Positions 17,489-28,023 of a DNA stretch of 64,000 nucleotides are shown one piece after another. The position numbers were made by a program, and so were the translations under genes. The notes below the pieces were generated by a model. It ran no database searches and was not told the origin of the DNA. It was given only the letters and a program-made list of their open reading frames with translations. Source of the stretch: Sphingomonas cavernae (GTDB taxonomy: Bacteria; Pseudomonadota; Alphaproteobacteria; Sphingomonadales; Sphingomonadaceae); NCBI RefSeq assembly GCF_003590775.1, contig NZ_QYUM01000003.1:746501-810500 (forward strand). Reading direction: 5' to 3'. Positions within the stretch are counted from its first letter, which is position 1, and each line of letters opens with the position of its first letter.

Positions 17489-17653
17489 CCCTCTCCTGTG
17501 GGAGAGGGCAGCGAGACTTAGTGAGCGTGAGCGAACCTAGTCGCAGCGGGTGTGGGGTTTCGGTGTATGGCGTTGATACATCCCAACCCCTCACCAACTC
17601 CAGCTAGGCGGCACGGCCGCCAAGCTTCTGTATCCTCTCCCTCTGGGAGAGGG
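17489..17653. repeat. CCTCTCC/GGAGAGG repeat, copy 1
   Basis: It begins two bases after the terminase stop with the hairpin CCCTCTCC-TGTG-GGAGAGGG (17489-17508). It continues with a CGCAGCGGGTG motif and its inverse, AACCCCTCACCAACT, and ends with a second hairpin (CCTCTCCCTCTGGGAGAGG). It is the same family as the elements at 18874, 21952 and 24660, all in GTA intergenic positions. Confidence 0.75.
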
Positions 17654-18864: not shown

Positions 18865-18873
18865 CGTTCGTGG

Positions 18874-18939
18874 CCCCTCACCAAGTTCGGCTAGGCGGCG
18901 TAGCCGCCAAGCCTTCCTATCCTCTCCCACTGGAGAGGA
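18874..18939. repeat. CCTCTCC/GGAGAGG repeat, copy 2
   Basis: It contains CCCCTCACCAAGTTCGGCTAG, an inner GGCGGCGTAGCCGCC palindrome and the hairpin CCTCTCCCACTGGAGAGG. Its last purine run, GGAGAGGAG, lies just upstream of the portal start, and its opposite strand GAGGGG lies upstream of the DUF559 start. Confidence 0.75.
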
Positions 18940-23477: not shown

Positions 23478-23804
23478 TCAGCTCGGCTTGCTGTTGGTGT
23501 CGAAATATTCGCGGTACATGATGCGGATATTCGACTGAAAGTCGCCGATTTCCTCGGAAATATACTGTTCGGCATCCTTGCGGGGCACGCCGTCCTTCAC
23601 GTCATAGTCGATCGCGACCTTCTTGAGCGTGCCCTCCTTGTCCGCACAGGCAGGGGCGAGCGCTTTCTCGAAATCGTCGGGCTTCATCTTCTCTTCGAGG
23701 CTCTTGCGCAGGAACTGATCGAGGCACTGGAGATAGGCCTTGCGCGGCGGATCGCTCGGGTTCGCAGCGGCCAAGAGCATTGTGACAAGCACTATTGAAA
23801 TCAT
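23478..23804 (-). CDS. Small secreted protein antisense within the GTA cluster
   Basis: A 108-residue protein of unknown function on the opposite strand between tail terminator and tail tube. MISIVLVTMLLAAANPS is a signal peptide, followed by a helical, charged domain with two cysteines (YLQCLDQFL, APACADKEG) that could form a disulfide, and a tail QYISEEIGDFQSNIRIMYREYF. The ATG at 23804 is preferred to an upstream start at 23849, because the shorter form begins at the signal peptide. Base use matches its neighbours. It is the only chromosomal-looking gene here besides DUF559 and the IS. Confidence 0.75.
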   Translation of the reverse strand: MISIVLVTMLLAAANPSDPPRKAYLQCLDQFLRKSLEEKMKPDDFEKALAPACADKEGTLKKVAIDYDVKDGVPRKDAEQYISEEIGDFQSNIRIMYREYFDTNSKPS

Positions 23805-23847
23805 GGTGAATTCCAATCCCAGAACTTGACTGCAAGGAGGGTGATAC

Positions 23848-24255
23848 ATGGCCGCGGAAAAGGGAAGTGCCTTTCTTCTGAAGGTCGGAAATGGCGCAAG
23901 TCCGCCGGTCTACGCGACCGTCGCGGGGCTGCGCACGACACAGCTTTCGATCAACGGCGAAGCCGTGGTCATCACCTCGAAGGACTCGGGTGGATGGCGC
24001 GAGCTGCTGTCGGGTGCGGGGGTGCGATCGGTGTCGGTGTCGGGCGCCGGCGTTTTCACCGGATCGGTCGCCGAACAACGGCTCAAATCCAATGCACTGA
24101 CCGGCGCGATCGACGACTATGAGCTCAGCTTCGAGAGCGGCGAGCGGATGCGGGGACGGTTCCTGCTCACGCGGCTCGACTATGCCGGCGATTTCAATGG
24201 CGAGCGGAGCTACACGCTGAGCCTGGAAAGCTCGGGCGCGGTGGTTTCGCTTTGA
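23848..24255 (+). CDS. GTA major tail protein (tail tube, g9)
   Basis: A 135-residue tail tube protein of the TP901-1 major tail type. It shows KGSAFLLKVGNG, VAGLRTTQLSINGEAVVITSKDSGGWRELLSGAGVRSVSVSGAGVFTGS, and the closing strands FLLTRLDYAGDFNGERSYTLSLESSG. Hexamers stack to build the tube. AGGAGG at 23835-23840 precedes the ATG. A paired CCGG-type palindrome follows. Confidence 0.93.
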   Translation: MAAEKGSAFLLKVGNGASPPVYATVAGLRTTQLSINGEAVVITSKDSGGWRELLSGAGVRSVSVSGAGVFTGSVAEQRLKSNALTGAIDDYELSFESGERMRGRFLLTRLDYAGDFNGERSYTLSLESSGAVVSL

Positions 24256-24258
24256 GGC

Positions 24259-24327
24259 GTACCCCGGCGAAGGCCGGGGTCCAGAGTCGCTTGTTCCGAG
24301 GCTGGACCCCGGCCTTCGCCGGGGTAC
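24259..24327. repeat. Paired CCCCGGCGAAGG palindrome, copy 1
   Basis: Two 26-base arms (24259-24284 and 24302-24327) are exact inverted copies: GTACCCCGGCGAAGG... and its inverse. Each arm is itself a small hairpin (CCCCGGC-GAAG-GCCGGGG). The same element is found at 25567-25648 and 43906-43984. It sits between the tail-tube and g10 genes. Confidence 0.85.
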
Positions 24328-24343
24328 TCGATGGAGACGGCCC

Positions 24344-24655
24344 ATGACCATACCAAACCCCGCGCGCGGTGAGGCGGCGATCCGGGTCCGCGGGCAGGTG
24401 CTCGTGCTTCGGCCGAGCTTTTCAGCGCTGGTGGCGGCCGAGGCCGAGTTGGGACCCTTGTTCGCACTCGTCGAACGCGCGGCCGGAGGGGCATTGTCAC
24501 TGAACGAGATGGCGGCATTGTTCTGGCACTGCCTGGCGGAGCGGCCCGACGGGCTGACGCGCGAGGCGCTGGGCGAGGGGCTGGCCGAGGCTGGACTGGC
24601 CAATGTCACGCCAGCGCTCAGGACGCTGCTGCAGCAGATATTGCAGGGACGGTAA
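24344..24655 (+). CDS. GTA tail assembly chaperone (g10 family)
   Basis: A 103-residue protein of the GTA_gp10 family (PF11836). It shows NPARGEAAIRVRGQVLVLRPSFSALVAAEAELGPLFALVERAAGG, LSLNEMAALFWHCL and the C-terminal GLAEAGLANVTPALRTLLQQIL. It functions with g10.1 and the tape measure in tail assembly. It starts 16 bases after the preceding palindrome; no strong Shine-Dalgarno is visible other than GGAG near 24332. Confidence 0.9.
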   Translation: MTIPNPARGEAAIRVRGQVLVLRPSFSALVAAEAELGPLFALVERAAGGALSLNEMAALFWHCLAERPDGLTREALGEGLAEAGLANVTPALRTLLQQILQGR

Positions 24656-24659
24656 CACA

Positions 24660-24821
24660 GCCTCTCCCCTGGGGAGAGGCCAGCGAGAGTTGGTGGCTTT
24701 GCCGCCTACTCGCAGCGGGTGAGGGGGTTGGATGGCTGACAGTCAACATCGTAGCCCCTCACCAACTGTGCCTAGGCAGCAAGCTGCCAAGGCTTCGTAT
24801 CCTCTCCCCAAAGGAGAGGGG
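24660..24821. repeat. CCTCTCC/GGAGAGG repeat, copy 4 (most complete)
   Basis: The hairpin CCCTCTCCCC/GGGGAGAGG (24660-24679) is followed by CGCAGCGGGTGAGGGG, the inverse CCCCTCACCAACT, an inner GGCAGC-AA-GCTGCC palindrome and a closing hairpin CCTCTCC-CCAAA-GGAGAGG (24800-24820). It spans g10's 3' flank and the first 30 codons of the next gene. Confidence 0.8.
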
Positions 24822-25010
24822 TTTGCGGAGAATGCTCTCAAACTGGCCGGCATCGCGGGCGCTCTGCTCGGCTGGCGGCCCGAGGAGTTCTGGGCGGCGA
24901 CGCCCGTGGAGCTGGCGACCGTGCTGGGCGCGCTTGGGGACGAAAGCGAGGCTGCGCCGCCCGGAGCGATCGAGCGCGCCGCGCTGATGGAGATGTTTCC
25001 CGATGGATGA
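24732..25010 (+). CDS. GTA tail assembly chaperone, g10.1 (rcc01693 type), chimeric N-terminus
   Basis: A 92-residue frame. The conserved g10.1 core is residues 31-92: FAENALKLAGIAGALLGWRPEEFWAATPVELATVLGALG. Residues 1-30 are not family-like and are the translation of repeat copy 4. No in-frame ATG, GTG or TTG lies between the repeat and the conserved core, so the only usable starts (ATG 24732, GTG 24768) are inside the repeat. The native start probably lay directly before the Phe-Ala codons and was replaced when the repeat inserted. The last eight bases overlap the tape measure gene. Whether the chimera is functional is unknown. Confidence 0.82.
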   Translation: MADSQHRSPSPTVPRQQAAKASYPLPKGEGFAENALKLAGIAGALLGWRPEEFWAATPVELATVLGALGDESEAAPPGAIERAALMEMFPDG

Positions 25011-25557
25011 GGAAATTGAACGGCTGGTGGTGAGCGTACGCGCCGATACGCAGGGTTTTGCGCGTGATGTGGCCGACATGCGGGCACAGCTCGACGGACC
25101 GCTTGGCGCGGGCGCGGAGCGTGCGGGCCAGATGATCGAGAATGCGCTGATGCGCGCGGTGCGCACGGGCAAGCTCGGGTTCGAGGACCTGAAGCGCGTG
25201 GCGCTGTCGGTGATGGCGGAGATCGCGTCGAATGCGATCGGGAATGGTATCGGTGCGATGCTCGGCGGCGGTGGTCTGGCTTCGGCGGGTGCGAATATAT
25301 TGTCGACATTGCTGGGCGTGCCAGGGCGCGCGACGGGCGGGCCGGTTTCGCCGGGGCGCGCCTATCTGGTGGGCGAGCGCGGGCCCGAATTGTTCGTGCC
25401 GACCTCCAGCGGCAGCGTTGCGGCGCCCGCGACGGGTGCGCGCGATGTCCGCGTGACGATCAACTTCAACGCGCCCGCGGGGAGCGACGCGCCGCAGATG
25501 CTGACGCGGTCTGCGCGGCAGGTGGCGCGCGCGGTGCGCGTAGCGCTGGCGGAGTAG
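25003..25557 (+). CDS. GTA tail tape measure protein (g11)
   Basis: A 184-residue tape measure, very short for a phage but in line with RcGTA-type clusters. The N-terminal IERLVVSVRADTQGFARDVADMRAQLDGPL and the middle Gly/Ala-rich hydrophobic segment (AIGNGIGAMLGGGGLASAGANIL) lead to the tail-tip signature ATGGPVSPGRAYLVGERGPELFVP. At the usual ~1.5 angstrom per residue it would specify a tail of only a few tens of nanometres (inference). Confidence 0.92.
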   Translation: MDEEIERLVVSVRADTQGFARDVADMRAQLDGPLGAGAERAGQMIENALMRAVRTGKLGFEDLKRVALSVMAEIASNAIGNGIGAMLGGGGLASAGANILSTLLGVPGRATGGPVSPGRAYLVGERGPELFVPTSSGSVAAPATGARDVRVTINFNAPAGSDAPQMLTRSARQVARAVRVALAE

Positions 25558-25686: not shown

Positions 25687-28023
25687 ATGCCTTATTGGCT
25701 CGCGAAAAAGTGCACCGTTCAGGAGAGCGGCTGGATCAAGCGGTTCGATCCGCGGTTCTGGACGGTCAATTTCCCGCGGCCGATGATGGCGTCGGTCGTG
25801 ACCACCGCCGCGGATGCCCCTTCGACAGGCTCAGGACAGGGTCTTCGCGTGGATGGGGTGTTCTATCGCACCAATGATCTGGCAGGGCTGATCTGGGAGG
25901 CGGAGGACCGGCATGATCATCCGCTGCTCGCCTATGAAACCGCGCGCGATTTTCGCGGGTGCCGGCTGCGTTTCCAATGGAAATCGTCGGGGATCATGCC
26001 GCTGGATGCGGTTCATGGGCCGACGCTGACGATCGAGGGACGCGACGCGGCGGGCGTGCCACGCGCCTGGTATGTTCGGCTGTGGAACTATGCCGAGGGC
26101 ACGCCGGAAGATGCTGAGATTGTGCTCGATTTCGATGCGCTCGCCGGCGGGTTCGTGCTGCCCGACGAGGCGGATCCCGTATGGGCGGGCGATATCGATC
26201 GGCTGTTTCTCTCGCTGGTCCCACCGGGCTATGCAACGAGCGAGGCGCCGTTGCCGGCGGCGCAGGAAGCATGGGTCGAACTGACCGGGATAACCTGCGA
26301 CGGACCGGGATCGGTGCTCGCGATCGGCGATGTGATGATCCCCGAACACGGCATACGAATCGCGAGCGGCTATGACGACAGCTATCACCTGACGCCCGCG
26401 CGACTGCTGCGGAACGCGCTGCAGCTCGGCTATCGCGGGGCCATCAACCACTATGTCGGGATGAGCCATTATTTCCGGCTCGAGGCGCTGTACGGCGGAT
26501 ATAATGTGAGCCTTGCGGGCGGGGCGCTCAGCGAGCCTTGCAAGGCGTGGCACCGGGATTTCGCGGCGCGCGCGAAGGCGCTGGGCTTCGGTCTTATCCT
26601 CTCGCTGTCGTACGAGCTGTTCAACGCGCATTGCTGGAACGACTGGAAGCAGCGCGCCGAGAATGGCGATCCTGCGCTCACGGGCTGGACGCCGCCGTCC
26701 ACGCTGCTCTCGCCCGCGCATTCGGGGGCGATGGGATATTTGCAGGCGGTGGCGCGCGCATTCGTCGCAATCGCGCGCGATGCCGGGCTTGCGGTGCGCT
26801 TTCAGGTGGGTGAACCGTGGTGGTGGGTGATGCCCGACGGGCGCATCTGTCTGTATGACGACGCGGCGCGCGCGGCTTTTGGCGGCAGCCCGGTTTCGAT
26901 CGCCAATGTGAAGGCGCCGATGAGCGCACCGCAAAAGGCGCTGCTCGATCAGGCGGGGGCATTGCTTGCGGCTTCCACCGCGGCGTTGTGCGCGGCCGCG
27001 AAGGCCGAGGCGCCGGGTGCGGAGACGCTGTTGCTGGTCTATCTGCCGAGCGTGCTGGATGCCCAAGCGCCCGAGGTCAGCCGGGCGAACGTCCCGCTGG
27101 GCTGGGCCAGGCCGGCTTTCGACGTGCTTCAGCTCGAGGACTATGACTGGGTTACCGGGGGCAATCGCGCCGCGACCGCGCGAGGCGTGGCTGAGGCCAC
27201 GGCGCGGCTGGGCTATCCATCTGATGAACAGCATTATTTTTCGGGCTTTGTGCTGAACAGCGCGGACGTCGGGCAATGGGCCGAGATCGATGCCGCGGCG
27301 CAGGCGGCATGCGCACGCGGTGCGGCGGAAGTGTTCGTCTGGGCGCTGCCGCAGGCGATCCGCGACGGTTTTGTCCATTTTGACGAGAAGGAGGCGAGCG
27401 TGCAGGCGTTCGACGATGTGCTGTTTCCGCTGGCGCTCGGGCGCGAGGCGAGTGTCGCGCCCGCATTCTCGACCGCGATCGTGACGATGGCGTCGGGGCA
27501 CGAGCAGCGCAACGCCGACTGGTCCGACGCGCGGCTGCGCTTCGATGCTGGGCCCGGTCTCCGTTCCGAGGCTGATATCGCAACGCTGATTGGCTTTTTC
27601 CGTGCACGACGTGGGGCTGCGCGGGGGTTCCGGTTTCGCGATCCATTCGATCACAGTTCCGCCGGCATGACCGGAGCGCCTGCCGCAACCGACCAGGCGA
27701 TCGGCACGGGCGATGGCGCGACGACGCGCTTTTCGCTCGTGAAGCGTTATGGGGCGGGCGCGGACGCGCAGTTGCGCCCGATCACGCGACCCGTGGCTGG
27801 CAGCGTCGCGGTCGCAGTGGACGGGGCGATCGTGACGGGCTGGACGCTCGACGGTGGCGTGGTGGCGTTCGATACGCCACCTGCTGCGGGTGCAGCGATT
27901 TCCGCGGGCTATCTGTTCGACGTGCCCGTCCGCTTCGCCGAGGACCGGATCGAGGTCAATCGCGCGACCTTTCTTGCCGGTGAGGCGGCGTCGGTGCCGT
28001 TGATCGAGATCCGGGAGGACTGA
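25687..28023 (+). CDS. DUF2460 distal tail protein (g12) with N-terminal TIM-barrel-like domain
   Basis: A 778-residue protein. The C-terminal ~200 residues (from about 590: STAIVTMASGHEQRNADW, LIGFFRARRGAARGFRFRDPFDHSS, ATTRFSLVKRYGAG, VRFAEDRIEVN) are the DUF2460/TIGR02217 distal-tail domain, which alone makes up RcGTA g12 (about 210 residues). The preceding ~550 residues contain a beta-rich part (30-220) and a glycoside-hydrolase-like barrel (about 230-560: AINHYVGMSHYFR, GLILSLSYELFN, VRFQVGEPWWW, LLLVYLPSVL, DVLQLEDYDWVTGG, EVFVWALPQAI), with Glu at strand ends. This resembles TIM-barrel tail-sheath proteins. Residues ~45-53 are encoded by a REP sequence. Confidence 0.88.
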   Translation: MPYWLAKKCTVQESGWIKRFDPRFWTVNFPRPMMASVVTTAADAPSTGSGQGLRVDGVFYRTNDLAGLIWEAEDRHDHPLLAYETARDFRGCRLRFQWKSSGIMPLDAVHGPTLTIEGRDAAGVPRAWYVRLWNYAEGTPEDAEIVLDFDALAGGFVLPDEADPVWAGDIDRLFLSLVPPGYATSEAPLPAAQEAWVELTGITCDGPGSVLAIGDVMIPEHGIRIASGYDDSYHLTPARLLRNALQLGYRGAINHYVGMSHYFRLEALYGGYNVSLAGGALSEPCKAWHRDFAARAKALGFGLILSLSYELFNAHCWNDWKQRAENGDPALTGWTPPSTLLSPAHSGAMGYLQAVARAFVAIARDAGLAVRFQVGEPWWWVMPDGRICLYDDAARAAFGGSPVSIANVKAPMSAPQKALLDQAGALLAASTAALCAAAKAEAPGAETLLLVYLPSVLDAQAPEVSRANVPLGWARPAFDVLQLEDYDWVTGGNRAATARGVAEATARLGYPSDEQHYFSGFVLNSADVGQWAEIDAAAQAACARGAAEVFVWALPQAIRDGFVHFDEKEASVQAFDDVLFPLALGREASVAPAFSTAIVTMASGHEQRNADWSDARLRFDAGPGLRSEADIATLIGFFRARRGAARGFRFRDPFDHSSAGMTGAPAATDQAIGTGDGATTRFSLVKRYGAGADAQLRPITRPVAGSVAVAVDGAIVTGWTLDGGVVAFDTPPAAGAAISAGYLFDVPVRFAEDRIEVNRATFLAGEAASVPLIEIRED
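25818..25841. repeat. REP sequence inside the g12-like coding region
   Basis: CCCTTCGACAGGCTCAGGAC and the following AGGG match the short palindromic repeat widespread in sphingomonads. Here it is read in frame as APSTGSGQG within the DUF2460 gene without disrupting it. Confidence 0.65.

Follow-up and report, generated by a model that had tools for sequence, protein, structure and literature searches.

A palindromic repeat appears to supply the start codon and 30 N-terminal residues of a GTA tail chaperone gene, at a junction where related bacteria have repeatedly gained other repeats

The stretch analyzed here (the window, 64,000 nucleotides of the Sphingomonas cavernae genome) contains a GTA head-tail cluster with terminase, portal, protease, capsid, g9, g10, g10.1, and further tail genes. 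The tail tube gene g9 (23848-24255, plus strand; Pfam PF06199, E 7.7e-41) is followed on the same strand by g10 (24344-24655), which encodes a GTA tail protein of the Phage_TAC_11 family (PF11836, E 8.6e-21), and then by g10.1, a tail assembly chaperone gene whose conserved core, as placed by Pfam and protein alignment, occupies plus-strand positions 24822-25010 including the stop codon. The g10.1 product matches Phage_TAC_6 (PF09550) over residues 38 to 91 of 92 (42.6 bits against a cutoff of 23.4), and its gene lies between g10 and a short tape-measure-like gene (25003-25557, plus strand) that overlaps it and that, going by GTA gene order, we take to be g11; this last gene has no Pfam match, and GTA contigs contain relatives of it that extend over 180+ residues. 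In antisense orientation between g8 and g9 there is a small open reading frame (23478-23849, minus strand) whose start resembles a signal peptide, and g8/g9 gaps of about 380 to 480 nt occur in several other clusters.

Between the g10 stop codon (24653-24655) and the g10.1 core lies a palindromic repeat of 159 nt (24661-24819), built of two CCTCTCC...GGAGAGG REP-like units in inverted arrangement around a variable center. The region from 24640 to 24860 folds into one long hairpin (minimum free energy, -116.9 kcal/mol; z, -5.6) that none of 200 shuffled sequences equaled. BLAST finds matches to the repeat at five further places in the genome (4.24 Mb in five contigs), making it a multicopy element, and the pattern of its head has 10 forward occurrences, including two within the element itself, against 0 for a reversed control pattern. 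The best other copy is 75% identical, and the variable center is unique in the genome, with no other match at 3 or fewer mismatches. The outer ends, read by eye as CCTCTCC/GGAGAGG when we checked for a GTAG/CGTC tag, are approximate, the copies being too few to fix the boundaries of the units. Of the two marks of a MITE, terminal inverted repeats and a target-site duplication, the ends are inverted and no duplication is recognizable by eye, judged in this case without a near-identical empty site for comparison.

Several other repeats lie in the cluster. Two further copies of the same family are located between g2 and g3 (17491-17653 and 18868-18938), where they flank an IS-like region in which two open frames, overlapping and both on the minus strand, resemble a transposase; the end of the second copy, GGAGAGG, comes immediately before a likely portal start, so this copy may supply an SD sequence there. 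A different palindrome, GTACCCCGGCGAAGGCCGGGGTCC, unlike the one at g10/g10.1, occurs at g9/g10 (24259-24327; inverted repeat with an arm of 33) and at g11/g12 (from 25567), so that three successive tail junctions bear hairpin repeats. In g12, eight codons (PSTGSGQG; 25819-25842, plus strand) form a second repeat-like in-frame insertion, this one within the N-terminal domain and made of repeat-like DNA, CCTTCGACAGGCTCAGGACAGG. It is missing from 82 of the 84 clusters in which the surrounding motif was found and is present, at the same codon, only in the window and in L072, which is not close to the window (tree distance, 0.83; rank 21).

The open frame of g10.1 is bounded upstream by an in-frame TGA inside the repeat (24720-24722). 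From there to the core, which begins with FAENAL at 24822, the only in-frame start codons of translation table 11 are ATG 24732-24734, in the variable center of the repeat, and GTG 24768-24770, also inside it; the next ones, CTG 24843 and ATC 24852, fall within the first helix of the core (helix 1). An SD-like GAGG (24721-24724), derived from the repeat's own GGGTGAGGGG motif and situated in the hairpin stem, precedes the ATG by 7 nt, and the codon immediately before the core Phe is GGG. We infer that translation starts at ATG 24732. Because both candidate starts lie within the repeat, the first 30 codons (24732-24821, plus strand; 18 codons if the GTG is used) would be encoded by it, and the repeat thus appears to supply both the start codon and the first 30 amino acids of g10.1.

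The protein itself divides at the same point. In an alignment of 50 proteins, the near-invariant Phe of the family is residue 31 of the window protein, and the 25 rows displayed all begin 1 to 6 residues before that Phe, the window and L064 excepted. An AlphaFold model based on the 50-sequence alignment places helix 1 at residues 31 to 46 with pLDDT above 90 and gives the extension neither helix nor strand (pLDDT, 66 to 77), in a model whose overall pTM is low at 0.46. A search for solved folds resembling g10.1 returned three hits, none convincing (best E, 3.1). The core has no stop codon and retains every invariant residue.

The hairpin bears directly on how such a start could be used. Once it is complete, the predicted probability of being unpaired is 0.02 for the SD-like sequence, 0.01 for ATG 24732, and 0.00 for GTG 24768. 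For transcripts ending at 24745 to 24755, the SD-like sequence and the ATG are unpaired with probabilities of 0.36 to 0.59, falling to 0.14 and 0.01, respectively, at 24760 and to 0.02 and 0.01 past 24765. Initiation at ATG 24732 would probably be cotranscriptional, taking place before the 3' arm hides the SD-like sequence; alternatively, ribosomes finishing g10 a few bases before the stem could open the hairpin. Expression of g10.1 in the window is likely to be low.

A repeat-free relative shows what the junction looks like when empty: in G003, the closest relative compared and the one genome of the same genus with a close GTA, an ATG stands four codons before the g10.1 core. At 229 of 256 loci (the 27 missed comprise 22 with no g10 match, mostly unrelated viral contigs, and 5 or 6 with no core motif), we determined how far the g10.1 core lies from the g10 stop; the median gap is 8 nt. 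Gaps of 30 nt or less account for 183 of the 229 junctions, a denominator slightly inflated by eight pairs of identical junctions that all fall in this class; 12 gaps are of 31 to 60 nt and 34 exceed 60 nt. Among the junctions with gaps of 30 nt or less, the first in-frame start lies 1 to 11 codons before the core at 182 of 183 junctions and within four codons at 140, the one exception being a distant locus (L027). Another of the more distant loci, L026, has a 23-codon N terminus with no clear palindrome.

The observation of the sequence-only reading is confirmed and its interpretation is partly supported: its coordinates are right, the two start codons that it named are the sole in-frame ones before the core and both lie in the repeat, about 30 residues are the repeat translated, GGG precedes FAE, and the ATG that it expected before the Phe-Ala codons of a repeat-free relative is present, four codons before the core. 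Its expectation that insert-free orthologues would have no equivalent extension holds for the junctions with gaps of 30 nt or less, where N termini do not exceed 11 codons, with L026 as a partial exception. The start and first codons can derive only from the repeat; that a protein is actually made from this start is less certain, the SD-like sequence and ATG being predicted to be buried in the hairpin. Two of its claims fare worse. It held that the native ATG was lost in the act of insertion, whereas the loss may have come later: in L059, a repeat of the same family at the same junction is followed by an ATG. It also called the element mobile, and a search of the window's genome (99.84% complete) for Y1_Tnp (PF01797)/RAYT transposases gave 0 matches at E 0.001, the same search being positive in 5 of 14 control genomes. 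What it missed is that this is one of many independent insertions, in most of which the native start is kept upstream and the repeat is read through.

No relative sharing the window's own insert was recognized among the junctions analyzed, which were drawn from the genus (5 genomes), the family (397 genomes, 231 with a match and 154 analyzed), genome contigs (7 loci), and viral contigs (80 kept of 582). The same repeat family does occur at this junction in L184 (76% identity over 161 nt) and L059 (74% over 154 nt), and L162 has a partial relative (80% over 66 nt). All three copies are oriented as in the window and are followed by another start, and all three loci are distant from the window on the tree (0.90 to 1.04, against 0.50 for G003).

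Insertions at this position are widespread. Gaps above 60 nt occur at 26 of 154 junctions in family genomes, 6 of 57 in viral contigs, and 2 of 18 remaining loci; setting aside L071 (gap of 603 nt, seemingly with an extra small gene) and L258 (501 nt), 32 inserts of 61 to 399 nt were classified, and by sequence they fall into 18 similarity groups. An inverted-repeat arm of at least 14 is present in 21 of the 32; six others (L113, L182, L186, L152, L143, and L026) count as inserts by length, their arms being only 9 to 12. L113, L182, and L005 form no marked hairpin (z near or above -2). Multicopy status was tested for two inserts, those of the window and of L148, the latter recurring at seven other places in its own genome. 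On a tree built from g10, g11, and the core of g10.1, it takes 18 changes (shuffled mean, 20.4; minimum, 17) to account for the 21 palindromic inserts, so most of these arose independently. A few sets are inherited, namely, L211/L232/L251 with a shortened L269 (genus g5), L005/L143 (g29), and L167/L183 (g63). The window is one case of a recurrent pattern, other repeats having been gained time and again at the start of g10.1 in related bacteria. We found no published description of a recurrent g10/g10.1 insertion site in the open-access literature, subscription papers being outside the scope of the search.

The inserts differ in where translation would begin. Of the 32, 18 retain the native start at the g10 stop, upstream of an insert that is read in frame, and 9 have a start 3' of the insert, within 12 codons of the core; 3 have starts in both positions and are ambiguous. 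Only the window and L148 have a start inside the insert and neither of the others. Every locus with a gap above 30 nt, among the 229, has an in-frame start. A clean case is the sister pair L224 (gap of 5 nt) and L273 (104 nt), of one genus and separated by a tree distance of 0.09, which share the same GTG start and differ by an in-frame insertion.

Reading frame is conserved across these inserts. Twenty of them have no start in the last 12 codons before the core. The core frame runs through 19 of these 20 with no stop codon, compared with 22 of the 40 other forward frames (binomial P = 1.1e-4 when sister loci are counted as independent, 2.1e-4 without L143); the 20th is the window, whose ATG comes after the TGA. 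The palindromic subset behaves alike, the core frame being open in 10 of 11 cases and the other frames in 10 of 22 (P = 0.0024). This evidence for frame constraint comes from other loci, since no close relative shares the window's insert. A frame comparison between classes A and B (Fisher P = 0.0009) was dropped as the main test: it counts junction starts only where the frame is open, which makes it partly circular. We also discarded a programmed frameshift from g10 into g10.1, of the kind known from lambda G/GT: at the 183 junctions with gaps of 30 nt or less, the core frame relative to g10 (mod 3) is distributed as 154, 27, and 2, and this variability, together with the TGA at 24720 that closes the window's frame, makes frameshifting unlikely as a general need.

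The amino acid sequences of the extensions are far less constrained. In genus g5, extensions of 50, 51, 70, and 15 codons are all in frame from one ATG, and for three pairs the dN/dS of the extension is 1.7, 1.1, and 1.0, against 0.21, 0.15, and 0.17 for the core; the L005/L143 pair gives 0.84 and 0.38, all of these values being based on few sites and on pairs that share branches. The extension is thus, on present comparisons, translated ballast whose frame is kept and whose sequence is not, and it has no evident function at the amino acid level.

We asked why this junction should collect repeats. Palindromic inserts occupy 10 of 94 g10/g10.1 junctions and 5 of 321 of all other tight junctions (g9/g10, 4 of 105; g10.1/g11, 1 of 106; g12/g13, 0 of 87; g13/g14, 0 of 23). 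Without the window and 40 chosen genomes (one per genus, some of whose junctions had been seen beforehand), the figures are 5 of 56 and 3 of 177 (P = 0.02). Loose junctions carry palindromes equally often or more so (g5/g6, 30 of 55; g8/g9, 17 of 100; g11/g12, 15 of 105), and we have cut back a general hotspot claim accordingly: g10/g10.1 is prominent among tight junctions only. The simplest reading is tolerance, in which repeats enter wherever they can be accommodated between genes and g10.1 puts up with an added peptide at its N terminus.

Directly visible in the data are the repeat, the lack of any other standard start, the relatives with empty sites, the recurrence, the frame bias, and the near-neutral evolution of inherited extensions. 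The explanation that we favor, and consider probable, is that a REP-like palindrome inserted at g10/g10.1 was retained by a tolerant N terminus and now supplies an SD-like GAGG, ATG 24732, and 30 codons. Such palindromes would land at this junction of the Sphingomonadaceae GTA cluster and be retained because any peptide is tolerated at the N terminus of g10.1 as long as the frame is kept. Most insert-bearing lineages still have the native start overlapping the g10 stop, from which the insert would be translated as an addition to the N terminus; the window has no native start left, and the repeat would provide these signals instead. Selection would then maintain a start and an uninterrupted frame but not the sequence of the extension. 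That the 30 residues are an old native N terminus merely resembling the repeat is very hard to credit, even with L026 showing that 23 codons can precede the core without a clear palindrome, since members of this DNA family are present at other places in the genome and, in L184 and L059, at this junction upstream of another start, and orthologues without inserts have 11 codons or fewer. Initiation at GTG 24768, which is in frame, or at a nonstandard codon in the core is improbable: the GTG is fully paired, has no visible SD-like sequence upstream, and would still be repeat borne, and a start at CTG 24843 or ATC 24852 would cut helix 1.

The main rival is that the insertion silenced g10.1, locking its start and SD-like sequence in the hairpin and leaving a recent pseudogene with an intact-looking core. 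We rate this as rather unlikely. The stability of the hairpin and the near-complete pairing of both signals speak for it, as does the IS-like region between g2 and g3, a sign that this GTA cluster has been struck before; it has to contend with a stop-free core in which all invariant residues are kept, with Pfam matches for the cluster's terminase, portal, protease, capsid, tail tube, and hub proteins, and with 229 loci among which none with a gap above 30 nt lacks an in-frame start. The divergence of the repeat from its best other copy further suggests, without proving, an old insertion. An explanation of another kind, unlikely in our estimate, makes the hairpins themselves the object of selection, with the stem-loop either lowering or metering how strongly g10.1 and the tape-measure gene are expressed in comparison with the capsid and tail tube genes before them, or protecting the upstream mRNA end. 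The repeated arrival of unlike palindromes and the excess at g10/g10.1 among tight junctions would fit it; tolerance explains the distribution as well, loose junctions being equally rich or richer, most junctions (183 of 229) have gaps of 30 nt or less, and some inserts have no marked hairpin. In its most extended form, which we offer as a doubtful conjecture, the g10/g10.1 junction of alphaproteobacterial GTAs would be a recurrent domestication site at which one lineage after another takes up any palindrome available in its genome. Its stem-loop, read through as a disposable N terminus, would fix how much tail chaperone 2 and tape measure are made in proportion to capsid and tail tube, the extension being the price of an RNA regulatory element.

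Several known classes of element resemble this repeat. A REPIN consists of two inverted REP units around a variable center, folds into one long hairpin, and is mobilized by RAYT transposases. The window repeat has the same architecture, two inverted REPs with a variable center; its genome has no Y1_Tnp match, so we do not assign it to a REPIN/RAYT system, and its copies are few and divergent. It has the features of an intragenic (coding) REP, being a palindromic unit in several genome copies that is in frame with a conserved protein, with no start 3' of it, on inferred translation. Di Nocera et al. (2013; PMC3733652) describe REPs and REP dimers inserted in frame in open reading frames, at the N terminus more than the C terminus, with GTAG/CGTC-tagged families in S. 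wittichi and with E. lithoralis and S. alaskensis among the intragenic-REP hosts; in one of their examples, different REPs occupy about the same recB site in two Xanthomonas species. The window repeat is, like the cases reported in that survey, palindromic, in frame, and N terminal; the inserts described here differ in that one short gene has been struck many times by unlike repeats and that 20 inserts have no ATG, GTG, or TTG in the last 12 codons before the core. RPEs are palindromic elements of about 150 bp, in several families, reported in frame in still-working proteins and in many unrelated genes of one genus, Rickettsia (PMC10969869). Compared by mode of action only, the window repeat is likewise a palindrome read in frame; unlike the RPEs described there, many dissimilar repeats are found here at one gene start across a family, and the window's repeat would itself give the start codon. 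In-frame REP insertion is therefore already known; what is new is its recurrence at the start of one structural gene, with the start codon supplied in at least two cases.

The REP survey cautions that many of its N-terminal cases may be extragenic, a downstream start being possible, and it states that hypothetical proteins of fewer than 120 amino acids were omitted (PMC3733652), a limit under which g10.1 would fall, being short. At least one large codon-usage study of GTAs also omits g10.1 (PMC9765227) because the gene is short. The REP literature leaves a doubt over whether N-terminal repeats are really coding, and g10.1 makes of it a natural experiment that has been repeated many times in a single short structural gene, with many unlike repeats, near-empty sister sites, and both outcomes, read-through and downstream start, within one family. 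The case shows selection on frame in the absence of selection on sequence, and with it how extragenic DNA becomes protein. For GTA biology, it means that the gaps, start sites, and hairpins at g10/g10.1 are lineage specific.
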